From positions 62,001-126,000 of the forward strand of contig CACJCN010000002.1 in the NCBI GenBank assembly GCA_902591925.1: a stretch of DNA of 64,000 nucleotides. The letters are read 5' to 3'. This DNA is from an uncultured SAR86 cluster bacterium (GTDB lineage: Bacteria > Pseudomonadota > Gammaproteobacteria > Magnimaribacterales > D2472). The notes below the pieces were generated by a model. That model did not search any database. It was not told the DNA's origin and saw only the letters and a list, made by a program, of their open reading frames with translations. Made by a program: the position numbers and the translations under genes. This document shows, piece by piece, positions 30,365-45,749 of this stretch (its first letter is position 1; each line of letters opens with the position of its first letter).

Positions 30365-30760
30365 TTATCTATTTTGAAATATAAAAATTAAAGAAATTGA
30401 TTGAATAATACCAATAATAAGGAATACAAATATATTTGCTGGTATACCAAAAGGATTTGGTTCATCTATTCCTTCACCAATTGGAACACCTCCATATAGT
30501 GACATCGTAAATATTGCAGAAAAAAAACCTAACACAATACATAGACTAAGAAGTGCTGGTAATAATGAATAATTACTTATCCATAAAAGGTATAAACCTA
30601 TTCCCGCTATAAATATATTTGTTGATAATCTCCACACTTCATGAACTCTTGAATGAGCGTCCCAGTCAGGATTTAATAAATGTGTGTGTCCAGTATCAAC
30701 AATTAATGGAAGTATTGTTCCTAATAGTAGACAAATTGTAGTTAAATACTTACTTGTCAT
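30365..30760 (-). CDS. Uncharacterised four-helix membrane protein
   Basis: 131 aa with four likely transmembrane helices. Between the first two lies a conserved-looking, His-rich loop, GHTHLLNPDWDAHSRVHEVW, which could bind a metal, haem or quinone. I recognise no named function; the loop recalls uncharacterised DUF-type membrane proteins seen beside catabolic genes. It overlaps the end of the FAH-family hydrolase by 11 bases on the same strand, so the two are co-translated. The hydrolase promoter carries palindrome site A, so this gene would share that control. Confidence 0.7.
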   Translation of the reverse strand: MTSKYLTTICLLLGTILPLIVDTGHTHLLNPDWDAHSRVHEVWRLSTNIFIAGIGLYLLWISNYSLLPALLSLCIVLGFFSAIFTMSLYGGVPIGEGIDEPNPFGIPANIFVFLIIGIIQSISLIFIFQNR

Positions 30761-31655
30761 CTTTAGGCATTCTAGCTTTAAGAAATTCAGGTAAATAGTC
30801 TGTATTTGAATGGTTATTAATTTTTACACATTTGTTTTCTAGTGTACCAATTCCTTCAATGGTTGTTTTTAAGATATCACCATCTTTAAGAAATTTACCC
30901 TGAGTTGCACCAACACCCTCAGGTGTACCTGTAAAAATAACATCACCAGTATTTAAAGTTATAAATTCAGATATGTATGAAATTAAATATGGAATATCAA
31001 ATATTAAATCGTTAGTGAGTGTTTCTTGTCTTAATTCATCATTTACCCAACATTGAAGTTTTAAGGATTCCTTATTATCAAATAAATCTGTTGATACTAA
31101 ATATGGTCCTATTGGCCCGAAAGTATCAAATGATTTACCTAAATTGAATTGTGGTGGTGTTGCGTGAAATTGAACTGGTCTATCTGATATATCTTGGCCA
31201 ACACATAAACCAGCTACATGATCCCATGCATCTTCCTTGCTTATATCTTTTCCACCCTTACCGATAACAAAAACTAGTTCAGCCTCATAATCTACCATAT
31301 CACTTTTCATAAATATGTCTGACTTTGGGCCAGAGATGCATGTTGAATGTTTGGTAAAAATCATAGGGAAGGGAGGTATCTCTAGATTAGATTCCTCCGC
31401 ATGTTTTCTATAATTTAAACCAACAGCAAAAACATTTGTTGGTATTATCGGTGGATCCAGATTTATATCACTTAAATTACCAGAGGGCTCGTAATCATTT
31501 AAATTTATATAAAGTTGGCTTAACTTCTCAGTGTCAGATAGAGCTTTAAGAGAATATGATGAAATGTCACCATTTGAGATGGTATTTACATCATAATATT
31601 TATCATCTTTTATAAATATTGCTCTTCCAGAATTGCTTCCTAATTTATACCCCAT
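30750..31655 (-). CDS. Fumarylacetoacetate hydrolase (FAH)-family protein
   Basis: A 301-aa member of the FAH superfamily (C-C bond hydrolases, hydratases, isomerases and decarboxylases of ring-cleavage products). NVFAVGLNYRKHAEES opens the catalytic domain. DYEAELVFVIGKGGKDI supplies metal-binding acidic residues, and CVGQDISDRPVQFH and GDVIFTGTPEGVGATQGKFL complete the fold. Members include fumarylpyruvate hydrolase and 2-keto-4-pentenoate hydratase-like enzymes; which one this is cannot be told. A GAGAGG Shine-Dalgarno and TATAGT hexamer precede it, with operator-like site A ending 29 bases upstream of the ATG. It is divergent from the TonB receptor. Confidence 0.9.
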   Translation of the reverse strand: MGYKLGSNSGRAIFIKDDKYYDVNTISNGDISSYSLKALSDTEKLSQLYINLNDYEPSGNLSDINLDPPIIPTNVFAVGLNYRKHAEESNLEIPPFPMIFTKHSTCISGPKSDIFMKSDMVDYEAELVFVIGKGGKDISKEDAWDHVAGLCVGQDISDRPVQFHATPPQFNLGKSFDTFGPIGPYLVSTDLFDNKESLKLQCWVNDELRQETLTNDLIFDIPYLISYISEFITLNTGDVIFTGTPEGVGATQGKFLKDGDILKTTIEGIGTLENKCVKINNHSNTDYLPEFLKARMPKDDK

Positions 31656-31684: not shown

Positions 31685-31700
31685 TTAGTCATTTGGATAA
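31685..31700. promoter_or_regulatory. Palindromic operator candidate, site A
   Basis: TTAGTCATTTGGATAA fits the consensus TTAnnCAnnTGnnTAr, an inverted repeat with half-site TTAnnCA. It lies 29 bases upstream of the FAH-family hydrolase ATG, directly behind its putative -10 (TATAGT on the minus strand, plus 31677-31682). Binding by the TetR protein encoded at 37808-38395 is inferred. Confidence 0.6.
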
Positions 31701-31778
31701 AATAATACAACTTCCCGAGAAAAATAGAAGTAATTTATAAGACATCTATATTTGGAAAATATATATAAATTATGTAAA

Positions 31779-31794
31779 CTAACCACATGGATAG
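31779..31794. promoter_or_regulatory. Palindromic operator candidate, site B
   Basis: CTAACCACATGGATAG has perfect CTA/TAG outer and CA/TG inner arms. It lies 33 bases before the TonB receptor ATG and overlaps the -35 region expected for a TATTAT hexamer at 31799-31804. Sites A and B together flank the divergent promoters of the hydrolase and the receptor. Confidence 0.6.
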
Positions 31795-31827
31795 AAATTA
31801 TTATTAGTTTCAATATAGGGGGAATTT

Positions 31828-34212
31828 ATGTATTCATCATTAGTCAAAAAAATATTATTAATTTCAATATTTACATTACCTTTTAGTGTTTTATCTCAAG
31901 ATGGTGGTGGAATCGAAGAAGTTGTAGTTACAGCTGAAAAAAGAGAACAAAATTTGCAAGATGTACCATCTTCAATAACTGCAGTTTCTGACACTGAAAT
32001 GGAAAGAGGTACTTACCAAAATATATTTGATCTTCAAACTTCTGTACCAAGTTTAGTTGTTGGTTCTGCCGGTGCTTCAAGACCTTTCTTATTTATTAGA
32101 GGTGTTGGAAGTCGTAAATTTGATCCAGGTACAGAAGGAGCTGTTGGTGTTTTTGTCGATGAAATTTATAACACAAGATTTACAAACTCTATGATGGATA
32201 TCGTTGACTTAGAGAGGGTTGAGGTTTTAAAAGGTCCTCAAGGAACACTCTATGGAAGAAATACCATTGGTGGTGCTATAGCTCTATACACAAAAAAACC
32301 TACTCAAGAAACTGAAGGAAAAATTAAAATTGGTTTTGGTACTGAAGGATATGGAAAATTAGCTGCCTCATATTCTGGAGGCTTAACTGATTCATTGGTT
32401 GGAAGAGTTACATTATCAACAAAAACTGATGATGGTTTTGCGGAAGAAAAATCATCAGGTAGAAATAATGGTGGTGATGTAGATGCATTTAGACTATCTC
32501 TAATCAAGGAAATGGAAAATGGATCAGAACTATCTTTAATGATACAAGACACCTCATACAGTGCAGATGCTCATTTAGCAGAAGCTCAACTTGAGTGTGG
32601 CCCTACAATTGATCCAAGTGGCTCTCCTAATTTTATGAGCGTAGCCTATTTCAGAGTTGGTGCTGCTGCAAGTCAACTTGCTAATGCTGGAATAATGCCA
32701 AATGACTGTTATTCAACCGGTCATTTATTGCCGTTTTTTCCTGCTGGACCTCTTGCTGGGCAAGTAAATGCTAATGCGCTACCAGCCATTGGCAGTGATT
32801 TAGTTCAAAATTTAATTAGAGCTGATATGGCTGATGGACCAAGAATTATTGATAATGATCATCCAGGCTTTAATGATATTGATTCTACTCTTGTAGCACT
32901 GAAATATATTAATGATATATCTGATAATTTAACATTAACAGCAATGTTATCAACAAATGACGTTGAAAATCAATCGAGTTTAGATTTTGATGCAACTAGC
33001 AGAGCATCCGTTGTTAATTACGTTGAAGAAGAGTCTGATCAAACCACAACTGAATTGAGACTAAACTATACTGGAGACAATTTCTATTGGGTTGGAGGTA
33101 TTTACCTTTTAGATGACAATATTTATAGTAATTATAACTTTACAACTGATATTCAATCTACATTTGGAATAGTTCAATTAATGCAAATGATGGCAGGTAT
33201 GACACCAACACCATCAGACAATATGCAGACATCAAATGCAAATGTAACTTCAGAAGCAATATATTGGCAGGGTACTTATGCATTAACTGACAAATTAAAT
33301 GCAACATTAGGTGTTAGAAAAAGTGACGATGAAAGTGACTACAGAATTGATATAACCACTACATCACCTGGCATACCATTTGTTCAAGTTCCTGGGTCAT
33401 GGTCAGAAGTTTTAACATTCGGATCAACAGACCCTAAATTTGTTTTAGATTATTCCTTTAATGAAAATACTATGGGATACGTTTCTTATTCATCGGGTTA
33501 TAAGAGTGGTGGATTTTCATTTGCTACTTGGTCAGAATCTGAATCAAGGGGTGGTTTTAAAGAAGAAGAACTTGATGCAACAGAAATTGGTATCAAATAT
33601 AAGTCACCTGATAATAGGCTTGTTATGAATGCTGCTTATTACGAATATGACTATAAAGATCAACAGCAGCAGATTATTGTAGTTACCCAATCAGGATCTT
33701 TAGCTGGAAAAACATTTAATGCTGGTCAATCTGAAATGACTGGTTTTGAACTTGAGACAAAATTAGCTATTACAGATAATACACAGTTAGATTTTAACTA
33801 TTACTCTACAGATACCTCATTTAAGTCTTTTGTAATACCAACAGCAGTTCCTCCATTGAATTTTACTGGAAATCAAATGAACTACTCGCCTGAGAAAGCA
33901 TATAATGTTGCCTTTACAGCTATCTCCGATGATGATTCATCAATATTTAGAATGGCATATTCATTCAAAGACGATTTTTTCATGGATCCAAGCAATAGAT
34001 TTTTAAGTATGCAGGAAAAATATGGAGTTGCTAATGTAAGTTATACAAAGTACTTTAATGATGATTTAAGAATGAAAATTTTCTGTACTAACTGTACTGA
34101 TGAAATCTATAAAACTCAGGTTACAACATTTGCTATTCCTTATGGTGGTGGTGGAAGAAACTACTATGCAAATGCAAGAAGAATAGGTGTTGAGATAACT
34201 AAAATGTTTTAA
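31828..34212 (+). CDS. TonB-dependent outer-membrane receptor
   Basis: A 794-aa receptor that imports a substrate across the outer membrane with TonB energy. It has a signal peptide (ILLISIFTLPFSVLS), a TonB box (EEVVVTA, about residues 29-35) and a plug domain (QDVPSSITAVSD; VEVLKGPQGTLYGRNTIGGAIAL). A beta-barrel follows and ends in a terminal Phe (IGVEITKMF), the outer-membrane insertion signal. A strong AGGGGG ribosome-binding site precedes the ATG. It is probably the uptake channel for the substrate of the surrounding catabolic cluster, since its promoter contains palindrome site B. Receptors of this large family in marine bacteria often carry organics rather than siderophores, but specificity is not readable. 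A clear terminator follows. Confidence 0.93.
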   Translation: MYSSLVKKILLISIFTLPFSVLSQDGGGIEEVVVTAEKREQNLQDVPSSITAVSDTEMERGTYQNIFDLQTSVPSLVVGSAGASRPFLFIRGVGSRKFDPGTEGAVGVFVDEIYNTRFTNSMMDIVDLERVEVLKGPQGTLYGRNTIGGAIALYTKKPTQETEGKIKIGFGTEGYGKLAASYSGGLTDSLVGRVTLSTKTDDGFAEEKSSGRNNGGDVDAFRLSLIKEMENGSELSLMIQDTSYSADAHLAEAQLECGPTIDPSGSPNFMSVAYFRVGAAASQLANAGIMPNDCYSTGHLLPFFPAGPLAGQVNANALPAIGSDLVQNLIRADMADGPRIIDNDHPGFNDIDSTLVALKYINDISDNLTLTAMLSTNDVENQSSLDFDATSRASVVNYVEEESDQTTTELRLNYTGDNFYWVGGIYLLDDNIYSNYNFTTDIQSTFGIVQLMQMMAGMTPTPSDNMQTSNANVTSEAIYWQGTYALTDKLNATLGVRKSDDESDYRIDITTTSPGIPFVQVPGSWSEVLTFGSTDPKFVLDYSFNENTMGYVSYSSGYKSGGFSFATWSESESRGGFKEEELDATEIGIKYKSPDNRLVMNAAYYEYDYKDQQQQIIVVTQSGSLAGKTFNAGQSEMTGFELETKLAITDNTQLDFNYYSTDTSFKSFVIPTAVPPLNFTGNQMNYSPEKAYNVAFTAISDDDSSIFRMAYSFKDDFFMDPSNRFLSMQEKYGVANVSYTKYFNDDLRMKIFCTNCTDEIYKTQVTTFAIPYGGGGRNYYANARRIGVEITKMF

Positions 34213-34214
34213 TT

Positions 34215-34239
34215 AAAGCCTCTGTTAAAGAGGCTTTTT
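34215..34239 (+). terminator. Rho-independent terminator after the TonB receptor
   Basis: AAAGCCTCT pairs with AGAGGCTTT (9 bp) around a GTTAA loop, followed by TT and an AT-rich tail. It starts 3 bases after the receptor stop codon. The following GST gene therefore needs its own promoter. Confidence 0.85.
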
Positions 34240-34286
34240 ATATATATTTTAAATATATTTTTAGATATTTTGTTTATTGATTTATT

Positions 34287-34302
34287 TTAATCACATGAAT
34301 AG
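34287..34302. promoter_or_regulatory. Palindromic operator candidate, site C
   Basis: TTAATCACATGAATAG fits TTAnnCAnnTGnnTAr. It ends 12 bases before the GST ATG at 34315. If the GST mRNA is leaderless, with TATTTA at 34303-34308 as the -10, this site fills the spacer between -35 and -10. Confidence 0.55.
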
Positions 34303-34314
34303 TATTTATATATT

Positions 34315-35175
34315 ATGAATAAATATGTTTTATATGGTTACGGGGAGTCTGTAGCATCTAACCAAGTTAGATTGGCCTTATCCGAAAAAAATATAACTTA
34401 TGACTATAATTTAGTTAAGTTGGAGTCGACAGGTGAACATTTACGAGATGATTATAAAAAATTAAATCCAAAGACACTGGTTCCAACATTAACAGTAAAT
34501 GGTAATCCAATATGTGAAAGCTTAGATATAATGAAGTTCATTGATAATGAACATCCTGATCAAGGAAAATCACTTTTTCCTGACGAAAGTGAGACTTTTA
34601 ATGATTTATTAGACTTTTTATTTTTGGATGATTCAAAAGAACTTGGTGCTAGTTTTGGATCTACTGGAGGCGGGATATCAGTTCCTGTTCTGGGTAGGTT
34701 GTTGTGCAAGAGATCATTATTAAGTGTATTCATGGATTATTATAAAAATCATGGTGTCAAAAAAAGAAAGTTTATTTTTTTAATGGTTAGAATATTTAGA
34801 GGGCCGCCACCAGGATTATATGAAAAAATGATGTATTTTTTAGCTAAACACTTAGTCTACACTGAAAATTATTTAAATCATGGTAAGGAATTCATATACG
34901 GTGATAAATATACAGCTGCTGATTGTCTTTTAACAGTTTTACTTCATAGAGTAAATGAAATGCGTTTTTATGATGTTTTTGATGGAAAAATATTACCAAA
35001 TATATCAAAATATTGGTCTATGGTTTCATCTAGACCAAGCTATAAAGAAGCAATTATTGATTATGAAACAGGTGAATGGAAACCTGAATTAGTCGCTTTA
35101 TATGGCGATGGTGCTAATACGTTTAGTGGATTACTAGAAAATAATATTAATAATATTTTAAATAAGGAGAATTAA
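34315..35175 (+). CDS. Glutathione S-transferase family protein
   Basis: A 286-aa GST-fold protein, longer than the usual 200-230 aa. The N-terminal thioredoxin-like domain reads YGYGESVASNQVRLALSEKN, with the cis-Pro motif LVPTLTVNG and the ES motif CESLDIMKFID for glutathione binding. The helical domain includes FIYGDKYTAADCLLTVLLHR. In ring-cleavage pathways GST-type enzymes isomerise maleylpyruvate or maleylacetoacetate, or act on halogenated or epoxide intermediates; either would fit the cluster (inference). It starts a plus-strand operon with the VOC dioxygenase and the nitroreductase; its stop codon overlaps the next start. Confidence 0.85.
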   Translation: MNKYVLYGYGESVASNQVRLALSEKNITYDYNLVKLESTGEHLRDDYKKLNPKTLVPTLTVNGNPICESLDIMKFIDNEHPDQGKSLFPDESETFNDLLDFLFLDDSKELGASFGSTGGGISVPVLGRLLCKRSLLSVFMDYYKNHGVKKRKFIFLMVRIFRGPPPGLYEKMMYFLAKHLVYTENYLNHGKEFIYGDKYTAADCLLTVLLHRVNEMRFYDVFDGKILPNISKYWSMVSSRPSYKEAIIDYETGEWKPELVALYGDGANTFSGLLENNINNILNKEN

Positions 35176-36287
35176 TGATGACAGAACCAGTTTGTAAAGT
35201 AGCAGATATTATATATGTAAGATTTGAGTTGACAGAGTTTGAAGAACAAAAAAAATACCTTCATCATTTTGGAATGATGCTAGCTCATGAAGACGAAAAC
35301 GGTATATTTTTTAGAGGAACAGGAACTTCGCCATACATATATGTTGCTACAAAAGGCGATGAAAATAAATATATAGGAACTGCATATAAGGCTAATGATT
35401 ATTCTGACTTAGAAGCTTTATCAAAAGAGTTTAATGTGGATATTGTTGAAAATACAGAACCTGGTGGTGGTCACAAAGTTACTTTAACAGATCCAGATGG
35501 TATTGAAGTTGAGGTTTGTCATGGTATGAATCAAGCCGAACCAGTTGCTGTAGTATCTAAAGTATTGAATACTGGTCAGTCAAAAGCAAGAGAGAGAAAT
35601 GTTGTACAGAGATTTGGTAATGCAGCAGATGAATGGCAGTTAAAAGGTGATAAATGGGTATATGAGTTATCATCAAAAGTTAAAAGATTAGGCCATACCG
35701 CCATAAATTGCAGAGATCCAAAAGCATCAGTTGATTGGTATGCGAATACAATTGGTTTTCTTATCAGCGATAATTTAGTTGCACCAGATGGAGACAGCAT
35801 GGGTGCATTTATGAGATGTAATCAAGGCGATAAACCTGTAGATCATCATACTCTTAATAATATGGCTTTACCTGGTGATAGTTATCCCGGTCCTTATGGA
35901 CATGCTGGTTATGAAGTATCAGATTCGGTAGACGATCTGATGGCAGGTCACTATCATTTAAAAACTAATGGTGAATATTTTCATGAATGGGGCATAGGAA
36001 GACATCTTTTAGGAAGTCAAATGTATGATTATTGGAGAGACCCTCATGGATTTACCCATGAACACTGGACTGATGGAGATTTAATTGATGCTTCTGTTCC
36101 TGCAAATGATGTAAGTTTATTTGAATTTGGTAAAGCTCAGTATGGACCTCCACCTCCAGCAACTTTTGGTCACTCTATGCCAATTGAAGAAGTTAACAAA
36201 GTTAGAGCTGAAGTCCCGGATCTTTATGAAGGAGTTTTAAAGGACTTAGCAAAAATGCAAAAAGAAATGGAAAATGAAAATGATTGA
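35175..36287 (+). CDS. Extradiol dioxygenase-like VOC protein with intact His-His-Glu triad
   Basis: A 370-aa two-module vicinal-oxygen-chelate protein. The N-terminal module (residues 8-118) lacks ligands, as in type I extradiol dioxygenases. The C-terminal module carries His174 (RLGHTAINCRDP), His243 (YGHAGYEVSD) and Glu296 (DPHGFTHEHW), at the positions of the iron ligands in BphC/HsaC-like enzymes. The length exceeds the usual 290-310 aa owing to an interdomain segment (residues 120-170) and a C-terminal tail. Likely reaction: oxygen-dependent meta-cleavage of a catechol-like compound. A glyoxalase-type isomerase is the alternative. AAGGAG precedes the start (ATG at 35175 or 35178). It sits in an operon with a GST and a nitroreductase. 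Confidence 0.82.
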   Translation: MMTEPVCKVADIIYVRFELTEFEEQKKYLHHFGMMLAHEDENGIFFRGTGTSPYIYVATKGDENKYIGTAYKANDYSDLEALSKEFNVDIVENTEPGGGHKVTLTDPDGIEVEVCHGMNQAEPVAVVSKVLNTGQSKARERNVVQRFGNAADEWQLKGDKWVYELSSKVKRLGHTAINCRDPKASVDWYANTIGFLISDNLVAPDGDSMGAFMRCNQGDKPVDHHTLNNMALPGDSYPGPYGHAGYEVSDSVDDLMAGHYHLKTNGEYFHEWGIGRHLLGSQMYDYWRDPHGFTHEHWTDGDLIDASVPANDVSLFEFGKAQYGPPPPATFGHSMPIEEVNKVRAEVPDLYEGVLKDLAKMQKEMENEND

Positions 36288-36942
36288 GTTTTCAGAAGAG
36301 CAAAAATTAGCTATTTCTAAAGCTCAAGAAACATTCTCAAAAATTAAAGAAGATGCGGATTTATTAAACGATAAACAATTAGATCTTCTTTTTGGTCAAG
36401 CGAGAAGTATGAATGGTTGGAAGGATCAAGATGTCTCTGACAATACATTAAATGATCTTTATGAACTGACTAAAATGGGTCCTACAAGCACTAATTCATG
36501 TCCAGCAAGATTTGTATTTATAAAATCTGATGAGATGAAAGAAAAAATTAAACCAGCTTTATTACCTAATAATGTTGATAAATGTATGACAGCTCCGGTT
36601 ATAACAATAATTGGCTATGATCTAGATTTTTCTGATCATATGGGTAAACTTTTTCCTCATATGGATGTTGCTCCGATGTATAAGGGGAATAGTGATATGA
36701 ATTTTGCAACAGCTTTTAGAAATGGTTCTTTGCAAGGAGCATATTTAATGATTGTGGCTAGAGCTTTTGGTTTGGATTGTGGCCCAATGTCAGGATTTAA
36801 TAATGAGTTAGTTGATGAAGAATTTTTTAGTGGTACAAATATTAAATCAAATTTTTTATGTTGTTTAGGTTATGGAGATCCATCTAAGATATTCTTTAGA
36901 CTACCAAGGTTTGATTTTGATGAAGTTTGTAAGATAGTCTAA
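36274..36942 (+). CDS. Nitroreductase-family oxidoreductase, RutE-like
   Basis: A 222-aa flavoprotein of the malonic semialdehyde reductase/RutE subgroup. LNDLYELTKMGPTSTNSCPARFVFIKS is the FMN-binding segment characteristic of RutE. The gap before APVITIIGYD and the NGSLQGAYLMIVARAFGLDCGPMSGF helix also match. The reaction in this subgroup is NADPH-dependent reduction of malonic semialdehyde to 3-hydroxypropionate; other small aldehydes or enones are possible. It overlaps the VOC gene by 14 bases (start 36274, alternative 36280). It may detoxify a semialdehyde produced by the cluster (inference). Confidence 0.85.
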   Translation: MKMIEFSEEQKLAISKAQETFSKIKEDADLLNDKQLDLLFGQARSMNGWKDQDVSDNTLNDLYELTKMGPTSTNSCPARFVFIKSDEMKEKIKPALLPNNVDKCMTAPVITIIGYDLDFSDHMGKLFPHMDVAPMYKGNSDMNFATAFRNGSLQGAYLMIVARAFGLDCGPMSGFNNELVDEEFFSGTNIKSNFLCCLGYGDPSKIFFRLPRFDFDEVCKIV

Positions 36943-37797
36943 TCAAAATTTAACAAGATCTGTTAAATATTTACCCATCATCTTATTTTTTATTTTTAAT
37001 ATTTGTTTAAATAATACTATAGGTCCGTCGATCTTTATTTCATTACTAAACCTTTTATCACTATCAAGATCATCAAACCATCTCTTTACATTCTCATATT
37101 TATTAATTGGTATTCCTGCTGAAAATAATCTTTTAGTTGAGACATACCAAGCTAAGTCAACAATTGTAAATTTGTTTCCTTTAAGGTATTTATTTGTTTG
37201 TAATTGACTATCAAATTTTGTATATATTTCTTTAAATTTACTAGCACTCTCAATAACTTCCTTATCTGTAATACCGTTATCGTAATGATTTTTCCAAAAT
37301 AAAAGTTCTCGTTCCTTATGCTCATCCTCTTTACCATTAATAGTTCCTATGTAAGATTCTTTAAATGAAAGTTTTTTAAGATCTTTCTTACCCAGACTAT
37401 GAGGAATGATATACCTAAAAGTCAGCCTCCGTAGATCATGATGAAGACTGTCTTCAAATGCAAGATCACTTACAATTTCATCAAATTTATCATCTGGATA
37501 TAATTTATTATTTGTAAACTTTTCATCTAAATACATCATTATGTCGTTACTTTCAATATGAACTTCACCGTTATCAACGAGGGTAGGAACCAATCCTCTA
37601 GGATTTATACCAAGAAACCATTCAGAAAATTGCTCCTGTTTAATTAAATTAATTTCGTGTGAATGCCAATCAATATTCTTAATATTAAGAAAGATTCTTA
37701 ATTTTTGTGAACAAGCAGAACCCTTAAAATGAAGTAAATGTATTCCTTCCCATGAAAGAACTTCTTTTGTTTTAATATCGGTTATATCTAATTTCAT
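36943..37797 (-). CDS. Glutathione S-transferase family protein, second copy
   Basis: A 284-aa GST-fold protein. LLHFKGSACSQKLRIFLNIKNIDWHSHEI is the N-terminal domain with a potential catalytic Ser/Cys. LVPTLVDNGEVHIESNDIMMYLDEKF is the glutathione-site motif. A longer helical domain includes NKYLKGNKFTIVDLAWYVSTKRLF. It is unlike the GST at 34315 apart from the fold, so the cluster holds two distinct GSTs. It is the last gene of the minus-strand operon monooxygenase-tetR-GST, 10 bases downstream of tetR, and ends next to the converging nitroreductase. Confidence 0.83.
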   Translation of the reverse strand: MKLDITDIKTKEVLSWEGIHLLHFKGSACSQKLRIFLNIKNIDWHSHEINLIKQEQFSEWFLGINPRGLVPTLVDNGEVHIESNDIMMYLDEKFTNNKLYPDDKFDEIVSDLAFEDSLHHDLRRLTFRYIIPHSLGKKDLKKLSFKESYIGTINGKEDEHKERELLFWKNHYDNGITDKEVIESASKFKEIYTKFDSQLQTNKYLKGNKFTIVDLAWYVSTKRLFSAGIPINKYENVKRWFDDLDSDKRFSNEIKIDGPIVLFKQILKIKNKMMGKYLTDLVKF

Positions 37798-37807
37798 TTA
37801 AATAATA

Positions 37808-38395
37808 TTATTTAAGTACTTTTAAAATTCCAAGCTCTCTTGCTTCAAAAAAATATTTCATAAAAACCTTTTTATCATTTGTAGACATTTCAAGCACTTC
37901 GTCAATATACTTTTCCATAGCAGCTAAGCCAAATTCAACAACCATAGCAATAGCCACAGCTGACTTAATTTCAGCATTAGGTTTTTTTAATTTTTTTAAT
38001 TTTGTAAGTTGTTCTAATGTTTGTCTTGAAACAGACAAATTTGAATCAATTTGAACTCTTACTAAATCCATTTGATCATCAAGTACAGCTCTTATAATAG
38101 CTTTAAAGTAATCTTCAGTTATAGTTGATAGGGGTTCGTCTCCAAGATTATTGGGCGATACATTTCTCCTTTCTAATTGTTGAACATGTTCAAATGCCAA
38201 TTGTTTGTAGGTTGCAATTAATAAACCTTTTTTTCCACCAAAATAATGATGAATTTGAGCATGATTTACACCAGCATGGTCAGCAATATCTCTTATAGTA
38301 AGTTGATTTGGGCCTACCGATCCAACAAGATATGCTGCAGAATCTATAAGACGCTTTTCAACATTTTTTCTACCTCTTCTATTATTATCATCCAT
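37808..38395 (-). CDS. TetR/AcrR-family transcriptional regulator
   Basis: A 195-aa repressor with an N-terminal helix-turn-helix (LTIRDIADHAGVNHAQIHHYFGGKKGLL) and a divergent helical ligand domain. The ORF track starts at 38455, inside the upstream monooxygenase; the ATG at 38395 (MDDNNRRGRKNVEKRLIDSA) is a normal TetR N-terminus and removes the overlap, so it is preferred. The gene lies in one operon behind the FAD monooxygenase, whose promoter holds palindrome site D. Autoregulation, and control of sites A-E, are therefore plausible. The inducer is unknown and is expected to be a pathway substrate or intermediate. Confidence 0.88.
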   Translation of the reverse strand: MDDNNRRGRKNVEKRLIDSAAYLVGSVGPNQLTIRDIADHAGVNHAQIHHYFGGKKGLLIATYKQLAFEHVQQLERRNVSPNNLGDEPLSTITEDYFKAIIRAVLDDQMDLVRVQIDSNLSVSRQTLEQLTKLKKLKKPNAEIKSAVAIAMVVEFGLAAMEKYIDEVLEMSTNDKKVFMKYFFEARELGILKVLK

Positions 38396-38408
38396 AGGTA
38401 TATGAATA

Positions 38409-39986
38409 TTAATGCTTAAAAAGCTCACCTTTGAGTTTTGTAGTAAGTTTGTCAATATTATTTACAATATCTTCATCATCTACACAACCATATATATGTT
38501 GATCTGGTCGAATTATCGCAGCAGATATATTATTTTCTTTAGCCCAACTAGAAATCTTTTTATCTTGATTAAATTTATTATCTTCTGTCATTAGATGGAT
38601 ATTATTATCAAAAATTTTTGCTGATTCTAAATTCTTAATTTCATTGAATACATTTATATCATTGTGAAATAGTAAAATTCCAAAATTGTTACCAAGATAT
38701 TGATCAAATAATTTATTATCGACTTTAATATCAAGAGAAGGGTGAGGAATAATTACACCATTAACATCATTAGGGAATAGATAATTATCAATCATTCCAT
38801 TTTTAATTTTCCATGGCTTTTGAAATTTTAAAGGTTTAAGAAGTTTTGGTATATAACTGGCAACATTGAGATAAATGTCTCTTAAGGTTGCTGTTAACCA
38901 ATCTTGACTTCCAATTATATCGCCTTGTTTCATTGCGCCTTTTATTACAAAATCCACAATTCCTTTTCTTTCTAATGAATATGTATTAAGAATTTTTTTA
39001 TTAAAAGCGTTGTTCATTACTCCTGATAATTTCCAACATAAGTTATATGAATCCTTTATACCTTGGCATAGACCTTGTCCTAAAAACGGAGGCATTTGAT
39101 GGGCAGCATCACCTAAAAGAAAACAATTATTAAATTTAAAATTTTTTGCCAATAGACCATGAAATGTATAGGCACTAGATCTTAACAATTTACCACTATG
39201 CAGTGGAATTTCTGGATTCAGCCTCCATAGATGTGGCTTCATCATTTTACGTATATTTTTTTCGTCTTCTAATGTCTCTAAATTATCATCAGGATTAACC
39301 TTAAATTCCCATCTAACGTGTTGTCCTGTTATTGGAACAATTGTCGTTGGTCTTTTATAGTCACATATCTGATATCGATCTGTGTTAATTTTGTATTTTT
39401 CATCTACTTGATAATCTACAACAACCCAATCTTGATCACATTTATAATCAAATGATTCTATATTCAATGCCTTTCTAACAAAACTATTAGCACCATCACA
39501 AGCTAAAACATAACTACTTGTAATATATTCATTTTCTTCATTGTTTATATTTAATAAAGTTAAATTATTAATAGATTCTTGAGCATCAATATTTGTTAAC
39601 TTATAGCCAAGTTTTATATCAATATTGTTATGTTTAATAGCTTCACTTCTTAAAAATTTTTCAAATATAGGCTGATTAAAGAAAACACTTTCATCATAAC
39701 CATTAATAGGTTCATCAAGTTTAAGATTTATATTTACAATAGATTTACCTTTATTGTTTAAAAAATTAATTCCTTCCATTGGATGAATAATTTTAGAAAT
39801 TTCATCCATAAAACCCATTGTTTGGAATATTCTTTGAGTTTGTCCATCAAAATGAACAGCTCTTGGAATATCCCAAATTTCTTTTTTAGGTTCTATTACA
39901 ATAGTATTGAAACCTTTTTGTCCAAATAAATTTGCTGTTACAGCGCCGACAGGACCATAACCTATTATTGCAATATCATAGTGCAT
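38409..39986 (-). CDS. FAD-dependent aromatic-ring monooxygenase (MhpA/PheA-like)
   Basis: A 525-aa group A flavoprotein hydroxylase. The N-terminal Rossmann motif IIGYGPVGAVTANLFGQKG binds ADP, DGANSFVRKAL is the DG motif, and LLGDAAHQMPPFLGQGLCQGIKDSYNLCWKL is the GD motif contacting FAD ribityl. A C-terminal thioredoxin-like domain follows. Length and order fit 3-(3-hydroxyphenyl)propionate hydroxylase (MhpA) and related phenol hydroxylases. Likely role: NAD(P)H- and O2-dependent hydroxylation of a phenolic ring to a catechol, ready for extradiol cleavage. It is first in an operon with tetR and a GST. Its minus-strand promoter (TTGACT, 18 bases, GATAAT) overlaps operator site D. Confidence 0.88.
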   Translation of the reverse strand: MHYDIAIIGYGPVGAVTANLFGQKGFNTIVIEPKKEIWDIPRAVHFDGQTQRIFQTMGFMDEISKIIHPMEGINFLNNKGKSIVNINLKLDEPINGYDESVFFNQPIFEKFLRSEAIKHNNIDIKLGYKLTNIDAQESINNLTLLNINNEENEYITSSYVLACDGANSFVRKALNIESFDYKCDQDWVVVDYQVDEKYKINTDRYQICDYKRPTTIVPITGQHVRWEFKVNPDDNLETLEDEKNIRKMMKPHLWRLNPEIPLHSGKLLRSSAYTFHGLLAKNFKFNNCFLLGDAAHQMPPFLGQGLCQGIKDSYNLCWKLSGVMNNAFNKKILNTYSLERKGIVDFVIKGAMKQGDIIGSQDWLTATLRDIYLNVASYIPKLLKPLKFQKPWKIKNGMIDNYLFPNDVNGVIIPHPSLDIKVDNKLFDQYLGNNFGILLFHNDINVFNEIKNLESAKIFDNNIHLMTEDNKFNQDKKISSWAKENNISAAIIRPDQHIYGCVDDEDIVNNIDKLTTKLKGELFKH

Positions 39987-40016
39987 ATAATGTTATTATC
40001 TATAAGTTAATTTATT

Positions 40017-40032
40017 TTAGTCAAGTGGATAG
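40017..40032. promoter_or_regulatory. Palindromic operator candidate, site D
   Basis: TTAGTCAAGTGGATAG lies midway between the divergent starts of the FAD monooxygenase (30 bases away) and mmsA (33 bases away). On the minus strand it contains the -35-like TTGACT. On the plus strand its end overlaps the -35 region expected for TATAAT at 40053-40058. It would let one repressor shut both promoters, including that of its own gene. Confidence 0.65.
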
Positions 40033-40052
40033 ATGACATAAAAAATATATTT

Positions 40053-40058
40053 TATAAT
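40053..40058 (+). promoter_or_regulatory. TATAAT -10 hexamer of mmsA (leaderless-type)
   Basis: A perfect TATAAT followed by 7 bases and the mmsA ATG, with no Shine-Dalgarno sequence. Transcription would begin at about the ATG. Site D covers the -35 region. Confidence 0.5.
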
Positions 40059-40065
40059 TGACACA

Positions 40066-41553
40066 ATGTACACAGTAGATAACTTTATAAACGGTAAGTC
40101 TGATACTGCCTCAAAAAATTCATCAATAATTGTTAACCCATCCTATGGTAAAGAGATAGGAAAAGTACTTTATGCTACTGATGAATCAATAAATTTAGCA
40201 GTTGAAACATCATTAAAAGCATTTAATACATGGTCACAAACTGGTTTAAGTTTTAGAGCAGAATTGATGCTTGAATTTAGACAAGAACTTATAAAAAAAT
40301 CATCTGAAATAATTGACTTATGTACTACTGAAGCCGGTAAGACATATCCAGATGCTGAAGCTGAATTGGATAGAGCGGTTCAATGTATTACTCATGCTGC
40401 ATCTGTTCAACACTTTTATCCGTCTCATTTGAGTCCCAATGTTGCAGGTGGAATCGATATTGCAGATAGACGTTATCCACTAGGAGTTGTTGTTGGTGTT
40501 GGCCCATTTAATTTTCCAATATTAATACCAATTGTTCATAGCTCTATGGCTCTTGTTACGGGAAATACATTTATATCTAAACCAAGTGAAAAAGTTCCGT
40601 CAATTTCAAGATTGATAGCAGAAATATATAAGGATGCAGGTTTACCTGATGGATGTTTTAACCTTTTAAATGGTGGCAAGGATGTTGTTGAGAGTCTTGT
40701 TTGTCATAAAGATGTTGCAGCTTTAGCTTTTATTGGTAGTACTCCTGCAGCTAAAAGTTTAAAAATGCTAGGCGTTGAAAATAATACGAAAGTTCAAGCT
40801 TTAGGTGGTGGTAAAAATCATATGATTGTTTTGCCTGATGCTGATTTAGATATGGCTGCAGATGCTGCCGTATCTGCAAGTTTTGGTGCAGCAGGTCAAA
40901 GATGTATGGCAGTTTCGGTTGTAGTCGCAGTTGGTGATATAGCAGATGATTTAGTTAAAAAAATTAAAGAGAGAATGCCTAATCTAGTTATTGGTAAAAC
41001 TGATAACTCTGATACTCAATTAGGACCAGTAATATCACAAGAAAATAAAGATAAAATCTACTCTTTTATAGAAACTGCAGAACCTGAAGGAGCCTCATTA
41101 GTAGTTGATGGAAGAGAAGTATCAGACGCTATGGAAGGTTGTTTTGTTGGTGCTACATTAATTGATAATGTAAAACCTGGAATGTCTGTTTACGAAAATG
41201 AAATATTTGGACCTGTTTTGTCTTTTGTAAGGGCAGAAACTTATGAAGATGCAATGAATATTACACATAGTCATAAATTAGGTAATGGGGCAGCAATATT
41301 TACTCGTGATGGAGGGGTTGCACAAAAATGGACTAATGAAATCCAGGCAGGCTCTATTGGAATAAATGTTCCAATACCACTCCCAACTTATACTCATAGT
41401 TTTGGTGGATGGAAGGATAGTGGTTTTTCTGAAACAAAAGCTTTTGGACCTTCTTCAATCGATTTCTATACCAAAACGAAATCTGTAGCAACTAGGTGGC
41501 CTGACCCTAAAGATAGCAAAGTTGATCTTGGTTTTCCCAAGAATGATAAATAA
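40066..41553 (+). CDS. mmsA: CoA-acylating methylmalonate-semialdehyde dehydrogenase
   Basis: A 495-aa aldehyde dehydrogenase-superfamily enzyme that converts methylmalonate semialdehyde or malonate semialdehyde to propionyl-CoA or acetyl-CoA. VVVGVGPFNFPILIPIVH is the Rossmann segment, ALGGGKNHMIVLPDADLD holds the usual ALGGAKNH-like segment, and the nucleophile is Cys280 in AAGQRCMAVSV. The C-terminal region reads AGSIGINVPIPLPTYTHSFGGWKDS. These are MmsA hallmarks rather than general ALDH ones. It may finish the pathway by making acyl-CoA from a semialdehyde fragment, pairing with the RutE-like reductase (inference). Downstream lies the overlapping alpha/beta hydrolase. Confidence 0.93.
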   Translation: MYTVDNFINGKSDTASKNSSIIVNPSYGKEIGKVLYATDESINLAVETSLKAFNTWSQTGLSFRAELMLEFRQELIKKSSEIIDLCTTEAGKTYPDAEAELDRAVQCITHAASVQHFYPSHLSPNVAGGIDIADRRYPLGVVVGVGPFNFPILIPIVHSSMALVTGNTFISKPSEKVPSISRLIAEIYKDAGLPDGCFNLLNGGKDVVESLVCHKDVAALAFIGSTPAAKSLKMLGVENNTKVQALGGGKNHMIVLPDADLDMAADAAVSASFGAAGQRCMAVSVVVAVGDIADDLVKKIKERMPNLVIGKTDNSDTQLGPVISQENKDKIYSFIETAEPEGASLVVDGREVSDAMEGCFVGATLIDNVKPGMSVYENEIFGPVLSFVRAETYEDAMNITHSHKLGNGAAIFTRDGGVAQKWTNEIQAGSIGINVPIPLPTYTHSFGGWKDSGFSETKAFGPSSIDFYTKTKSVATRWPDPKDSKVDLGFPKNDK

Positions 41554-42799
41554 TTTTTTAAATCTTTTAATCAAATTAATAATTAATTTTATATTTATAT
41601 TCATAGATATATACATATCGACTCTAATCTTTTTTAGAGAAAAGCTTTTTTATACTCCTAATATTAAAAAATCAAAATATGCAAAGAAAACATTATTTAT
41701 CGATAATCAAAGTCATTTTTACTTTGAATTTGGTAATGCTAAAGCTACTGAAGAAGATACAATTCTTATGATTGGAGGAATACCCACAAATCCTATGGAG
41801 TCGATGAGTTGGCTAGCAGCTGAACTTATTAATTTAAATACTAATTTCAAAGTTTTAATATTTAATATTCCTTTCTACGAAAATCATTTTGATATTGAGT
41901 TATCAGATACATTAGCATCCACAAATGGTAAAAATCTATTTACTAATAAAATAATTGATAATAAAAAAATTAATGTGGATCATAAATACTCACATAAAAA
42001 TCAAGGAATAAAAATAAATGATTTCCTTAAGGCTCTAAATATAACTAAATGTCACTTTGTAGGTCATGATAGGGGTGCCGTAATTTTAGAATATTTTGCA
42101 ATTAATTTTCCTAGTAAAGTATTAAGTTATTCAAGAGGATCTCAAGTTTGGAATTATATTGAACCGGAATGGGAATTATTGGCACCAGATATATGTGTTG
42201 GACCTCCACACAAAATTATGACTGTGTATGAGCAACTTAGACTTCTTCTTTTTTCAGTAATTCATTTTAAAAAACCACTTGAGCTTCTATCTGATTCTTT
42301 TGAATTAAAAGCTAGCAGAGCAAAGAAAGGAACAGATTTATACGATAGATATACTCATCTAAAATATAAATCACAACTGTCATATAAAAAATATTCAGAA
42401 AAGTTTAAACATTCACTTATTCAAGGTGGTGTTTACTCCGAGGTGAAGAATAGGGCTAATCTTAGAGAAAGATTATTTCCAATCATGCAATTTCAAGGAG
42501 AAGATGAGTTTAAATATAATAATTCAGGTACATTGATTTCTGATCAGCCCTATTTTGGTATTTATAATTTATTTAGAAATGAAATAAAAGATGTTTATCC
42601 AGGTTGTATTGGCCAAGAATTTAAAAAGTATCAAAGTCAATACGTTACAGAAAAGCTTAATTATAAAGAAATCCAGTTAAAGCCAAACGCTAGGTTTTCA
42701 AAATTTTGTTTAATTCCAGATTCAGCACACTTTAATGTTGTTGAAAATCCAAAAAGTTGCGCAAATGCAATTGCAGATTTTATAAAAGAAATTAATTAG
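41543..42799 (+). CDS. Membrane-anchored alpha/beta hydrolase with Asp nucleophile
   Basis: 418 aa from the ATG at 41543, chosen over the track's TTG at 41522; it overlaps the mmsA stop by 11 bases. A strongly hydrophobic N-terminal helix (LLIKLIINFIFIFIDIYI) anchors it. The fold has IGGIPTNPM as oxyanion loop, CHFVGHDRGAVILEYFA as nucleophile elbow with Asp near residue 176, and DSAHFNVVE with the catalytic His. GHDRG is the elbow of epoxide hydrolases and haloacetate dehalogenases. C-C hydrolases of meta-cleavage pathways use Ser, so this is probably not an MhpC. Substrate unknown. Confidence 0.78.
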   Translation: MINNFLNLLIKLIINFIFIFIDIYISTLIFFREKLFYTPNIKKSKYAKKTLFIDNQSHFYFEFGNAKATEEDTILMIGGIPTNPMESMSWLAAELINLNTNFKVLIFNIPFYENHFDIELSDTLASTNGKNLFTNKIIDNKKINVDHKYSHKNQGIKINDFLKALNITKCHFVGHDRGAVILEYFAINFPSKVLSYSRGSQVWNYIEPEWELLAPDICVGPPHKIMTVYEQLRLLLFSVIHFKKPLELLSDSFELKASRAKKGTDLYDRYTHLKYKSQLSYKKYSEKFKHSLIQGGVYSEVKNRANLRERLFPIMQFQGEDEFKYNNSGTLISDQPYFGIYNLFRNEIKDVYPGCIGQEFKKYQSQYVTEKLNYKEIQLKPNARFSKFCLIPDSAHFNVVENPKSCANAIADFIKEIN

Positions 42800-44351
42800 A
42801 TTTTAAATAAAATCTTACAAACAATCCAAATAATAAAATGATTAAAATAGCCAGAATAACTATTTCTTTAAAAGCCAAAATCATAATCCATACAAATAAT
42901 ATTGCATTAATAAAAGGTGAGGGCGGTTCTTTTAGTTCATAATCTCTATTTAGCCAGGGACTTCCAATAAACCTAGTTTCATCTGTAAATCTATCTCCCC
43001 ATAAAAACATCATTACAGGATCAATTTTTGGTGGATTCATCCAAATAGTCTGATTATCCATTGTGTTTTTCATTTCATTAAATACCTCTTGATATTGTTG
43101 AGATAAATCATTTGTTTCATATGGATCATTTAATATATCGTAAAGCTCATATGTTTTAGGGCCATTTGCTTGAATATTTTGGCTATAGAACAGCTTCCAT
43201 TTTCCATTAAATAGAGCTCTTTCATCATTTATAACTATATTGCCAGTATGTACATTTTTTGGTTCCTTGATATTGTTATTGATCAAGTCATCCCATCTAT
43301 CAACGCCTGTAAAAGGTGAATTATTAACTTTAATAGAGGCTGCTGATAAAAGTGTTGGTAAGAGATCCTGAGCAAAGAAAAATTGATCAGATTTTCCTCC
43401 CTCAAGTTTACCTTTCCAGTAAATTACAGCAGGCACTCTTATGCCACCCTCATATGCTGAAAGCTTACTACCCTTTAATTTACCAGCACTACCTCTTGCA
43501 GATAAAAGATCAGGTGCTATAACTTTTGCTATCGGATCAACATCAAAAACAGGCCCGTTATCACTAAAAAATACAATGATTGTTTCTTCAAGGAGTCCTG
43601 AGTTTTCAATAGCTTTAATAATTTTTCCAATTTCTCTATCTAAAGAAAAAATATTAGCAGCATATTTTCTATCATAATCATTGTCTATATTTTTAAATAA
43701 TTCAATATCACTTTCTTCAGCTTGAATAGGAGTATGAGGTGCATTAAAAGCAACATATAAAAAAAGTGGGGTAGATTCGTCTTTGTTTTCAATTATTCTT
43801 ACAGCCTCATTAGCAATGAGAGTTGTAGAATAGCCGTCTTCATAAAGAACTTCGCCGTTTTTATGCCAATCTAGCCTTCCTGAAAAACCATGATCAAAAT
43901 AACCAATACCTCCCATAAGATGACCATAAGTTGAATCAAAGCCTCTATTTATTGGTAAAAAGGCATCATCAGACATACCTAAGTGCCATTTTCCTGATAA
44001 AGCTGTTACATATCCTACATCTCTCAAGTATTCAGGCATAATTTTGTGCTCAAGCGGCATTCCGAATGATTCAACTCTTGGATTAGCAAAAGGTCGAACA
44101 ACACCATTAGCAAAGTTGTTAATACCTGTAAGCATTGATGCTCTAGTGGGACTGCATGATGGATCAGCATAAAATCGATTCATCTCTAAACCTCTAGAGG
44201 CCAAATTATCAATATTTGGTGTTGGAATCGTGCCACCATGATAAGAGACATCACCCCAGCCAAGATCATCAGTTAATATGATAACTATGTTTGGCTTATC
44301 AAGCGCTATTAAACTACATGAAAATAATAGTAAAAATGCAAATTTTTTCAT
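42792..44351 (-). CDS. Arylsulfatase-type sulfatase with C-terminal membrane helix
   Basis: A 519-aa exported sulfatase. It has a signal peptide (FAFLLLFSCSLIALD), metal-binding Asp28 and Asp29 in ILTDDLGWGD, and the formylglycine signature CSPTR with Cys66 and Arg70 in DPSCSPTRASMLTG. SGKWHLGM and FFSDNGPVFD complete the active site. The cysteine type needs a formylglycine-generating enzyme, not seen in this window. The last 35 residues form a membrane helix (ILAILIILLFGLFVRF), so the enzyme is probably tethered with its domain in the periplasm. A TATAAT hexamer 6 bases before the ATG, with operator site E at its -35, links it to the TetR regulon. It may desulfate a sulfated phenolic or polymer (inference). 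Confidence 0.92.
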   Translation of the reverse strand: MKKFAFLLLFSCSLIALDKPNIVIILTDDLGWGDVSYHGGTIPTPNIDNLASRGLEMNRFYADPSCSPTRASMLTGINNFANGVVRPFANPRVESFGMPLEHKIMPEYLRDVGYVTALSGKWHLGMSDDAFLPINRGFDSTYGHLMGGIGYFDHGFSGRLDWHKNGEVLYEDGYSTTLIANEAVRIIENKDESTPLFLYVAFNAPHTPIQAEESDIELFKNIDNDYDRKYAANIFSLDREIGKIIKAIENSGLLEETIIVFFSDNGPVFDVDPIAKVIAPDLLSARGSAGKLKGSKLSAYEGGIRVPAVIYWKGKLEGGKSDQFFFAQDLLPTLLSAASIKVNNSPFTGVDRWDDLINNNIKEPKNVHTGNIVINDERALFNGKWKLFYSQNIQANGPKTYELYDILNDPYETNDLSQQYQEVFNEMKNTMDNQTIWMNPPKIDPVMMFLWGDRFTDETRFIGSPWLNRDYELKEPPSPFINAILFVWIMILAFKEIVILAILIILLFGLFVRFYLKSN

Positions 44352-44357
44352 TATTCT

Positions 44358-44363
44358 ATTATA
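44358..44363 (-). promoter_or_regulatory. TATAAT -10 hexamer of the sulfatase gene (leaderless-type)
   Basis: On the minus strand TATAAT is followed by 6 bases (AGAATA) and the ATG at 44351. A 17-base spacer puts the -35 position at 44381-44386, exactly inside palindrome site E. Confidence 0.55.
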
Positions 44364-44380
44364 TAACCTTATTGATATTT

Positions 44381-44396
44381 TTAGTCATATGGATAA
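44381..44396. promoter_or_regulatory. Palindromic operator candidate, site E
   Basis: TTAGTCATATGGATAA is centred on CATATG, and the longer TTTAnnCATATGnnTAAA is also symmetric. It lies 29 bases from the sulfatase ATG on one side and 29 bases from the DUF1330 ATG on the other, so it could control both divergent operons. Confidence 0.65.
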
Positions 44397-44425: not shown

Positions 44426-44737
44426 ATGGCAAAAATTAATGTTTTTATAGTGGTAAATTTAACTATAAATGATGCAGAAGAATACAGGATTTATGAAAAA
44501 GGATTTTTTCCAATTTTAAAAAAACATAATGGAACTTTTATTACATATGATGATTCGCCAGATGTGCTTGAGGGACCAAAACCTTTACCTGGGAGAGTGA
44601 TTATTTTTACTTTCCCATCCGAAGATGATGCTAACAATTGGTGGAATGATATGGATTATCAAGAATTAAGTAAACATAGAAGGGCAGCAACGAATGCAAC
44701 TATTCAACGTATTAAGGGATTGCCTCCAAGAGAATAA
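44426..44737 (+). CDS. DUF1330 family protein
   Basis: A 103-aa protein with the ferredoxin-like (dimeric alpha-beta barrel) DUF1330 pattern: NDAEEYRIYEKGFFPILKKHNG, then GRVIIFTFPSEDDANNWWND and YQELSKHRRAATNATI. The molecular function of the family is not established; structures resemble small monooxygenases and dehydratases. AAGGAG precedes the ATG. First gene of an operon with cytochrome b561 and an SRPBCC protein, controlled by the region containing site E. A second DUF1330 gene begins at 63625. Confidence 0.85.
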   Translation: MAKINVFIVVNLTINDAEEYRIYEKGFFPILKKHNGTFITYDDSPDVLEGPKPLPGRVIIFTFPSEDDANNWWNDMDYQELSKHRRAATNATIQRIKGLPPRE

Positions 44738-45279
44738 TGATTGATTACCTAAGAATACAGAAAATTATTCACTGGTTAATGGCTATTATCATAATGCTTG
44801 ATTTAAATATTGCTCAAAAATTTGGAGGTGAAATGCAACTTTTGGATCGTTTAGAATCAAGAGTAGATCACGCAACAGCAGGCATGATAGTTACTTTTTT
44901 ATTTGTTTTAAGAATAATATTAAGATATAGGTATGGAGCACCAAGTCTCCCACAAACTATGCCACTGTGGCAAACACATTTAGCTAAATTAGGGCACTTT
45001 GGTCTCTATTTTCTTATGGGATTACTAATTATATCTGGAATAACAACAGCAAATTTTACTAGTGACCCAATTGTGGTATTTGGTTTATTTAATTTATCTT
45101 CAGAAGTAGACAATTTATATATGTTTGAGTTAATTCGAGGCATTCATGAATTCGCAACAAACGCTATAATTGCTCTAATAATTATTCATATACTTGCTGC
45201 CATTTATCATCACTTTATTATAAAAGATGATACTACCAAAAATATGCTTAAATTTTGGACAAGAAAATCTTTGAGATGA
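44737..45279 (+). CDS. Cytochrome b561 family membrane protein
   Basis: 180 aa, four transmembrane helices. Conserved histidines stand at the helix positions that ligate two b-type haems: IIHWLMAIIIMLD, RVDHATAGMIVTFLFVLRIILRY, LGHFGLYFLMGLLI and IRGIHEFATNAIIALIIIHILAAIYHH. Such proteins pass electrons between quinol and a periplasmic partner, or relieve superoxide. The ATG overlaps the DUF1330 stop by one base and its TGA overlaps the next ATG. The partner may be one of the exported enzymes of the cluster (inference). Confidence 0.9.
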   Translation: MIDYLRIQKIIHWLMAIIIMLDLNIAQKFGGEMQLLDRLESRVDHATAGMIVTFLFVLRIILRYRYGAPSLPQTMPLWQTHLAKLGHFGLYFLMGLLIISGITTANFTSDPIVVFGLFNLSSEVDNLYMFELIRGIHEFATNAIIALIIIHILAAIYHHFIIKDDTTKNMLKFWTRKSLR

Positions 45280-45749
45280 TAGTTCAGAGTCAATTAGAGA
45301 TAAATAAAGAGTCTAATACAGTTATTGATTTAATTAAAAGTAAAAGTAATCTTGAAAAATTTCATCCATTCTGTAAAAAAAATATTGTAGTTAAATGGAA
45401 AGGTAAAAATTCTGAAGATATAGTTATTTATCATAATAATAAACAATATGTAAGAAAATTTACTGAATGGCATCAAAGTGGTTATAAGCTTGAGATATTT
45501 GAAGATAGAAAACTTGCAGATATTTCATGGAATGTTAAAGATTTAAATAACAAATCTATTATTAAAATCACAGCAAAACCTTATCTACCATATAAATATA
45601 GATTTATTAATGTAATAGTATTCAATCTATATGTTAAATACGTTCTGCAAAGTTACTTAAATTCAGTTGTAAAAGGGCTTAAATATTACCTAGAAACTAA
45701 TAAAACTGTATCAGATAATCAATTCGGTAGACATATTTGGTATTCCTGA
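45276..45749 (+). CDS. SRPBCC (START-like) ligand-binding protein
   Basis: 157 aa from the ATG at 45276, coupled to the b561 stop by an ATGA overlap; the track's longer version from TTG 45255 lies inside b561. It opens IVQSQLEINKESNTVIDLIKSKSNLEKFHPFC, the usual start of polyketide-cyclase/SRPBCC domains. It ends with a long amphipathic helix (YVLQSYLNSVVKGLKYYL). The predicted fold is a helix-grip with a cavity for a hydrophobic ligand. There is no catalytic signature and the ligand is unknown; the operon suggests redox or binding of a cluster intermediate. Confidence 0.65.
   Translation: MIVQSQLEINKESNTVIDLIKSKSNLEKFHPFCKKNIVVKWKGKNSEDIVIYHNNKQYVRKFTEWHQSGYKLEIFEDRKLADISWNVKDLNNKSIIKITAKPYLPYKYRFINVIVFNLYVKYVLQSYLNSVVKGLKYYLETNKTVSDNQFGRHIWYS

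Follow-up and report, generated by a model that had tools for sequence, protein, structure and literature searches.

Five 16-bp inverted repeats recur in the promoter regions of a gene cluster of an uncultured SAR86 cluster bacterium, which raises the question of what regulator they serve and how it could control genes on both strands. The window, i.e. the whole stretch of DNA that was analysed, comprises 64,000 nt (GCA_902591925.1, contig CACJCN010000002.1, positions 62,001 to 126,000) with a GC content of 30.6%; the genome has 1,198,535 bp. The initial annotation had proposed the five palindromes as marks of a candidate TetR regulon, and we recovered all of them at the positions and start-codon distances that it gave. 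Operators A (31685..31700, TTAGTCATTTGGATAA) and B (31779..31794, CTAACCACATGGATAG), both exact matches, lie 29 bp before the FAA-hydrolase gene and 33 bp before the TonB-dependent receptor, respectively. Operator C (34287..34302, TTAATCACATGAATAG) precedes the GST operon by 12 bp. Operator D (40017..40032, TTAGTCAAGTGGATAG) is located in the monooxygenase-tetR/mmsA divergon at 30 and 33 bp, and operator E (44381..44396, TTAGTCATATGGATAA) in the sulfatase/DUF1330 divergon at 29 bp from either gene.

Genome-wide scanning was carried out by pattern searches with reversed-pattern controls. The loosest pattern, TTANNCANNTGNNTAR with one mismatch allowed, stayed at chance level, with 28 matches in the window where 24.3 were expected, and the signal therefore resides in the full motif. 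The genome contains five exact matches to YTARYCANNTGRATAR and no more, namely sites A–E, so that the proposed comparison of coding with intergenic hits found no further exact match anywhere. Because YTARYCANNTGRATAR was derived from sites A–E themselves, other genomes provide the real tests. The symmetric pattern YTANYCANNTGRNTAR occurs at five places in the window's genome, again sites A–E only, vs one for its reversed control. From 50 cluster sites of 16 genomes (35 distinct) we obtained the symmetric motif YTADYCANNTGRHTAR with two 7-bp arms and two free central bases. Positions T2, A3, C6, A7 and T10, G11, T14, A15 are invariant among these 50 sites, partly by construction, as the sites were gathered with the symmetric search pattern. 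The information content is highest at the palindrome, although its two central bases contribute next to nothing, and the flanks carry little apart from the promoter elements. The asymmetric consensus TTAgtCA/TGgaTAr put forward earlier thus had to be given up, as it reflects five sequences only and the larger site set gives a symmetric motif.

The genes behind these sites suggest a catabolic pathway. The tetR operon on the minus strand starts with an MhpA-like FAD-dependent aromatic hydroxylase (38409..39986; NCBIfam NF004829, 404.9 bits, cut-off 390), and downstream of tetR it encodes the glutathione S-transferase-like protein 2, GST2 (36943..37797, Pfam). Also on the minus strand are the FAA-hydrolase gene (30750-31655; FAA_hydrolase, 208 bits), a DUF6640-like gene (30365-30760; DUF6640, 21.1 bits, below the cut-off of 27) and a sulfatase that retains its CSPTR motif intact and whose start resembles a signal peptide (42792..44351). 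The plus strand carries the TonB-dependent outer-membrane receptor (31828..34212, Pfam), followed by GST1, a vicinal-oxygen-chelate dioxygenase-like protein and a RutE-type malonic semialdehyde reductase (34315..36942; reductase NF003768, 272.8 bits, cut-off 152). Further along lie a CoA-acylating (methyl)malonate-semialdehyde dehydrogenase (TIGR01722, 505.9 bits, cut-off 448.5) together with an alpha/beta-hydrolase-like protein that has a weak Abhydrolase_1 match below the cut-off (40066..42799), and then DUF1330, cytochrome b561 and an unassigned ORF (44426..45749). The MhpA-type hydroxylase, both semialdehyde enzymes, the FAA hydrolase, the receptor and the sulfatase score above their family cut-offs. 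In the dioxygenase-like protein, which presumably cleaves rings, H174, H224/H225 and E296 are invariant in all 11 aligned sequences. Taken as a set, the genes suggest that the substrate, probably a sulfated phenolic or other aromatic compound, is taken up, desulfated, hydroxylated, cleaved and turned into semialdehyde products. SAR86 degrades steroids (PMC4810484), and a steroid pathway was considered as well; nothing specific in the cluster favours one.

The regulator itself is a TetR-family protein of 195 aa (37808..38395, minus strand), the N-terminal helix-turn-helix of which matches Pfam TetR_N (PF00440) with 43.5 bits at a cut-off of 24. Its AlphaFold2 model is all-helical (pLDDT 91) and in fold comes closest to structures of the TetR family (PA3006, CecR and PhlH, TM ~0.63-0.69 at 14-17% identity). 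The best PDB sequence match, B. subtilis RefZ/YttP, covers the helix-turn-helix only (9.5e-8), and neither the PDB sequence nor the fold comparisons yielded a close characterised relative. In line with the earlier claim that TetR is the only regulator nearby, no other was recognised among the neighbouring proteins scanned. The recognition-helix region VNHAQIHHYFGGK is almost invariant in 13 orthologs, and the palindrome is present in the promoters of the regulator's own and neighbouring genes. We assign the motif to the cluster TetR as its predicted operator because this is the sole regulator recognised in the cluster, because the two co-occur and because VNHAQIHHYFGGK is nearly invariant, like the operator itself. 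TetR would hence bind sites A–E and regulate its own synthesis via site D. In this it would resemble local TetR-family repressors of catabolic clusters, which likewise combine a TetR_N helix-turn-helix and an all-helical fold with a short palindromic operator that lies on core promoters and is common to their own operon.

The RutR box, TTGACCAnnTGGTCAA, has the same 7-2-7 layout as the SAR86 operator, and the RutE-type malonic semialdehyde reductase of the cluster is a further link to the RutR system. RutR of E. coli is a TetR-family protein with a palindromic operator of ~16 bp (PMC10891134). RutR identity was therefore considered for operator layout and RutE-like enzyme, and rejected: TIGR03613 gave 19.3 bits at a cut-off of 368, and identity between the two proteins is confined to the helix-turn-helix (31% over 65 residues). 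BetI (NF001978, 52.8, cut-off 118; TIGR03384, 49.3, cut-off 201.3) and RefZ (NF037937, 46.4 bits, cut-off 180) were discarded likewise.

A TetR ortholog is found in 13 of 107 family genomes, and in 12 of these 13 the equivalent promoters bear exact sites, in line with the conservation in relatives that the initial annotation had suggested checking. These 12 are the genomes that also keep the adjacent FAD-monooxygenase. YTANYCANNTGRNTAR is conserved at the monooxygenase-tetR/mmsA, FAA-hydrolase, receptor and GST operon promoters, and the site complement varies, with some genomes lacking a site at some of these promoters. Operator D is the most widely conserved, being exact in every monooxygenase-bearing genome where the divergon is seen. 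Operators A and B are kept in G081, G080 and G062; A takes the form TTAGTCA.../...TGACTAR in G078, G070, G082, G091 and G108, and B is found at other receptors in G091, G053 and G108. The sulfatase/DUF1330 operator was seen in the closest species, with a sequence identical to operator E in G080 and G081. In three further genomes (G020, G056, G062) sites lie on contigs that end within the cluster before TetR is reached.

Counts across genomes follow the regulator. Across 15 genomes (the 14 with TetR, and G020, in which the contig end cuts off the cluster), we counted 48 exact sites in the cluster or the neighbouring divergon vs 21 in the remaining ~17 Mb. The 13 TetR genomes average 6.08 YTANYCANNTGRNTAR matches vs 2.62 for the control, and the 91 family genomes with neither TetR nor a truncated cluster 1.14 vs 1.77, i.e. 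no excess over the control. TetR-positive and TetR-negative match counts differ with a Mann-Whitney p of 3e-9, a value to be read with the relatedness of the genomes in mind, as they are not independent. In G108, which belongs to a second SAR86 family and possesses TetR, the pattern, fixed beforehand, has only three exact matches genome-wide, all on the 10.8-kb cluster contig and directly before the FAA-hydrolase, receptor and GST1 genes. A one-mismatch match on the same contig lies inside the monooxygenase gene and was taken as chance. Among the other Gammaproteobacteria sampled, in a draw of 369 genomes, no member of this TetR subfamily was found.

Additional sites were seen at other genes. 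Genera g5 and g9 include genomes with an extra divergon, of TPP enzyme and short-chain dehydrogenase, that bears the same operator; here the TPP-enzyme gene faces a short-chain dehydrogenase/GST/DUF6640-like operon across one common operator with promoters on both strands (L047:8188, L049:5468, L050:5413, L054:3308). Exact matches also precede non-cluster genes in G081, G082 and G062 (L071:1790, L072:1961 and L067:399, respectively); those of G081 and G062 stand before TonB-dependent receptors, which may be extra regulon members. G070 (L065 14317-14957) and G082 (L085 11867-12505) contain a 159-aa reading frame inserted between monooxygenase and mmsA, which has one operator at the start and a second behind it, suggestive of a duplicated operator-promoter unit.

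Could another regulator, encoded elsewhere, bind the palindrome, while TetR has a different operator? TetR and the target genes are inherited as a block, so that co-occurrence alone does not distinguish the two cases, and one genome, G069, has TetR without sites. Its intact-looking TetR has 58% identity and an unchanged recognition helix, and its reduced cluster (L060 6737-12277) is without monooxygenase, mmsA and receptor; neither an exact nor a diverged operator was found in this cluster. Either the circuit is decaying in G069 or the role of its TetR has changed. Fragments at 8208-8867 in G069 look like a broken dioxygenase gene. Against a regulator from elsewhere, however, the scanned neighbouring proteins show no candidate, and the motif follows TetR into another family. 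Moreover, family genomes with neither TetR nor a truncated cluster show no motif excess, which makes use of the motif by a regulator from the common genome unlikely. We thus regard this explanation as improbable, although it is the strongest of the rivals, and prefer the cluster-encoded TetR as the binder.

The position of the sites relative to promoter elements bears on the mode of action. Of 100 site orientations, 37 have a -35-like element TTG[AC][TC] (TTGAT/TTGAC) that starts precisely 9-10 bp upstream of the operator (10 bp in 21 cases, 9 bp in 16); the remaining offsets between -40 and -5 account for 8 in total. TANNNT at operator positions 14-19 accompanies all 37 placed -35 elements vs 52% of the other orientations. 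The operator thereby forms the spacer, as in TTGATT-N17-TAGGAT or TTGACT-N16-TAAAAT. As this geometry recurs at five promoter kinds (FAAH, GST1, monooxygenase/mmsA, DUF1330 and TPP/SDR), it is not one inherited sequence. It is present on both strands at 11 sites, where two divergent promoters therefore share one operator. The earlier placement of the sites on the -35 or spacer was right in outline and can be refined, since at sites C and E, as in many relatives, the whole spacer is taken up by the operator, which also extends into the -10. In the window, the strict geometry is confined to C (predicted promoter TTGATT-N17-TAGTAT) and E (toward DUF1330, TTGATA-N16-TAAACT); A and B do not fit, and D has weak -35 elements (TTAATT / TTTATG). 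At site C (window 34287-34315), the GST1 mRNA would begin ~3 bases before the start codon and be nearly leaderless if TTGATT-N17-TAGTAT is used. A general promoter scan of the region had no power, returning fewer matches than shuffles.

Bidirectional promoters, in which one DNA stretch engages RNA polymerase both ways, were described by Warman, Grainger and colleagues (PMC12825309, PMC10268837), and include PacrA/acrR with the TetR-family repressor AcrR. Like PacrA/acrR, the SAR86 divergons would engage polymerase in both orientations with a TetR-type repressor, here a predicted one, at the same place. In contrast to the start sites of the former promoters, which are 7-25 bp apart around a common -10, those of the SAR86 divergons are predicted from element positions to be ~35 bp apart, and it is the operator-occupied spacer that the two promoters would have in common.

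We conclude that YTADYCANNTGRHTAR is very probably the operator of the cluster-encoded TetR, which would repress by occluding core promoters and be released by a pathway compound. The earlier regulon claim is thereby supported by exclusivity, conservation and co-occurrence with TetR; motif and promoter-element geometry complete the evidence, all of it at the sequence level, from which we infer binding by TetR, repression, ligand and substrate. A TetR dimer would bind one palindrome per promoter region, where the 16-17 bp from -35 to -10 are occupied by the operator, which also overlaps the -10; because of this position, bound TetR would exclude RNA polymerase. In the monooxygenase-tetR/mmsA divergon of most relatives and the TPP-enzyme/SDR divergon of other SAR86 genera, the two opposing promoters would share the same spacer, and one operator would therefore shut both. 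TetR would be autoregulated because its own operon is among the targets. The pathway substrate or an intermediate would release TetR, and the genes for receptor, sulfatase, hydroxylase, dioxygenase-like enzyme, GSTs, hydrolases and semialdehyde enzymes would then be induced jointly.

Some TetR-family proteins act as activators. FasR has been described as one (PMC7382501), and TetR-bound sites in SAR86 might accordingly activate promoters, or both activate and repress them. An operator within the spacer and over the -10, however, is the classic arrangement of steric repression, and at 16-17 bp the spacer already has its normal length, so that no distortion is needed; we consider activation quite unlikely. 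That the repeats are chance resemblances between AT-rich promoters, or promoter sequence passed on without a regulator, is hardly credible despite the low GC content of the window and the chance-level loose pattern, given the exclusive placement of the sites, their conservation across several genera and two families, their retention at genes replaced by distant homologs, and an information content centred on the palindrome.

Such replacement is most evident in G081, where TetR and GST2 are 96% identical to those of the window, monooxygenase and sulfatase only 56% and 67%, and the operators are kept. This mosaic cluster (L064 1353-19961) suggests gene exchange inside a fixed regulatory frame. 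The receptor is only ~25% identical in g5, g8, g9 and G108, with operators still present. We may hence speculate, with appreciable but less than even confidence, that TetR and operator stay fixed while receptor, FAD-monooxygenase and sulfatase are swapped for distant homologs, with one operator in the spacer common to two fully overlapping divergent promoters.

Local TetR regulons are of a familiar kind. In the literature searched, from which subscription journals are largely missing, we found no description of this operator, of the regulon or of shared-spacer divergent promoters in SAR86. SAR86 bacteria are among the most abundant of the surface ocean and were cultured only recently, and their aromatic catabolism was inferred from genes (PMC11582366); regulation is not discussed in that work, where a text search for 'regulat' gave no match. 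Control of bidirectional promoters is said to have been unknown before a recent study (PMC12825309), and overlapping divergent promoters with a built-in operator offer a natural test case for them. For SAR86, the predicted operator and regulator define genes that act together on one substrate. They also make this substrate findable, as either the substrate itself or an intermediate is the expected ligand for the release of TetR from its operators. If the exchange of genes under fixed operators is true, the group would possess a standardised regulatory cassette with which new aromatic or sulfated substrates could be taken on.
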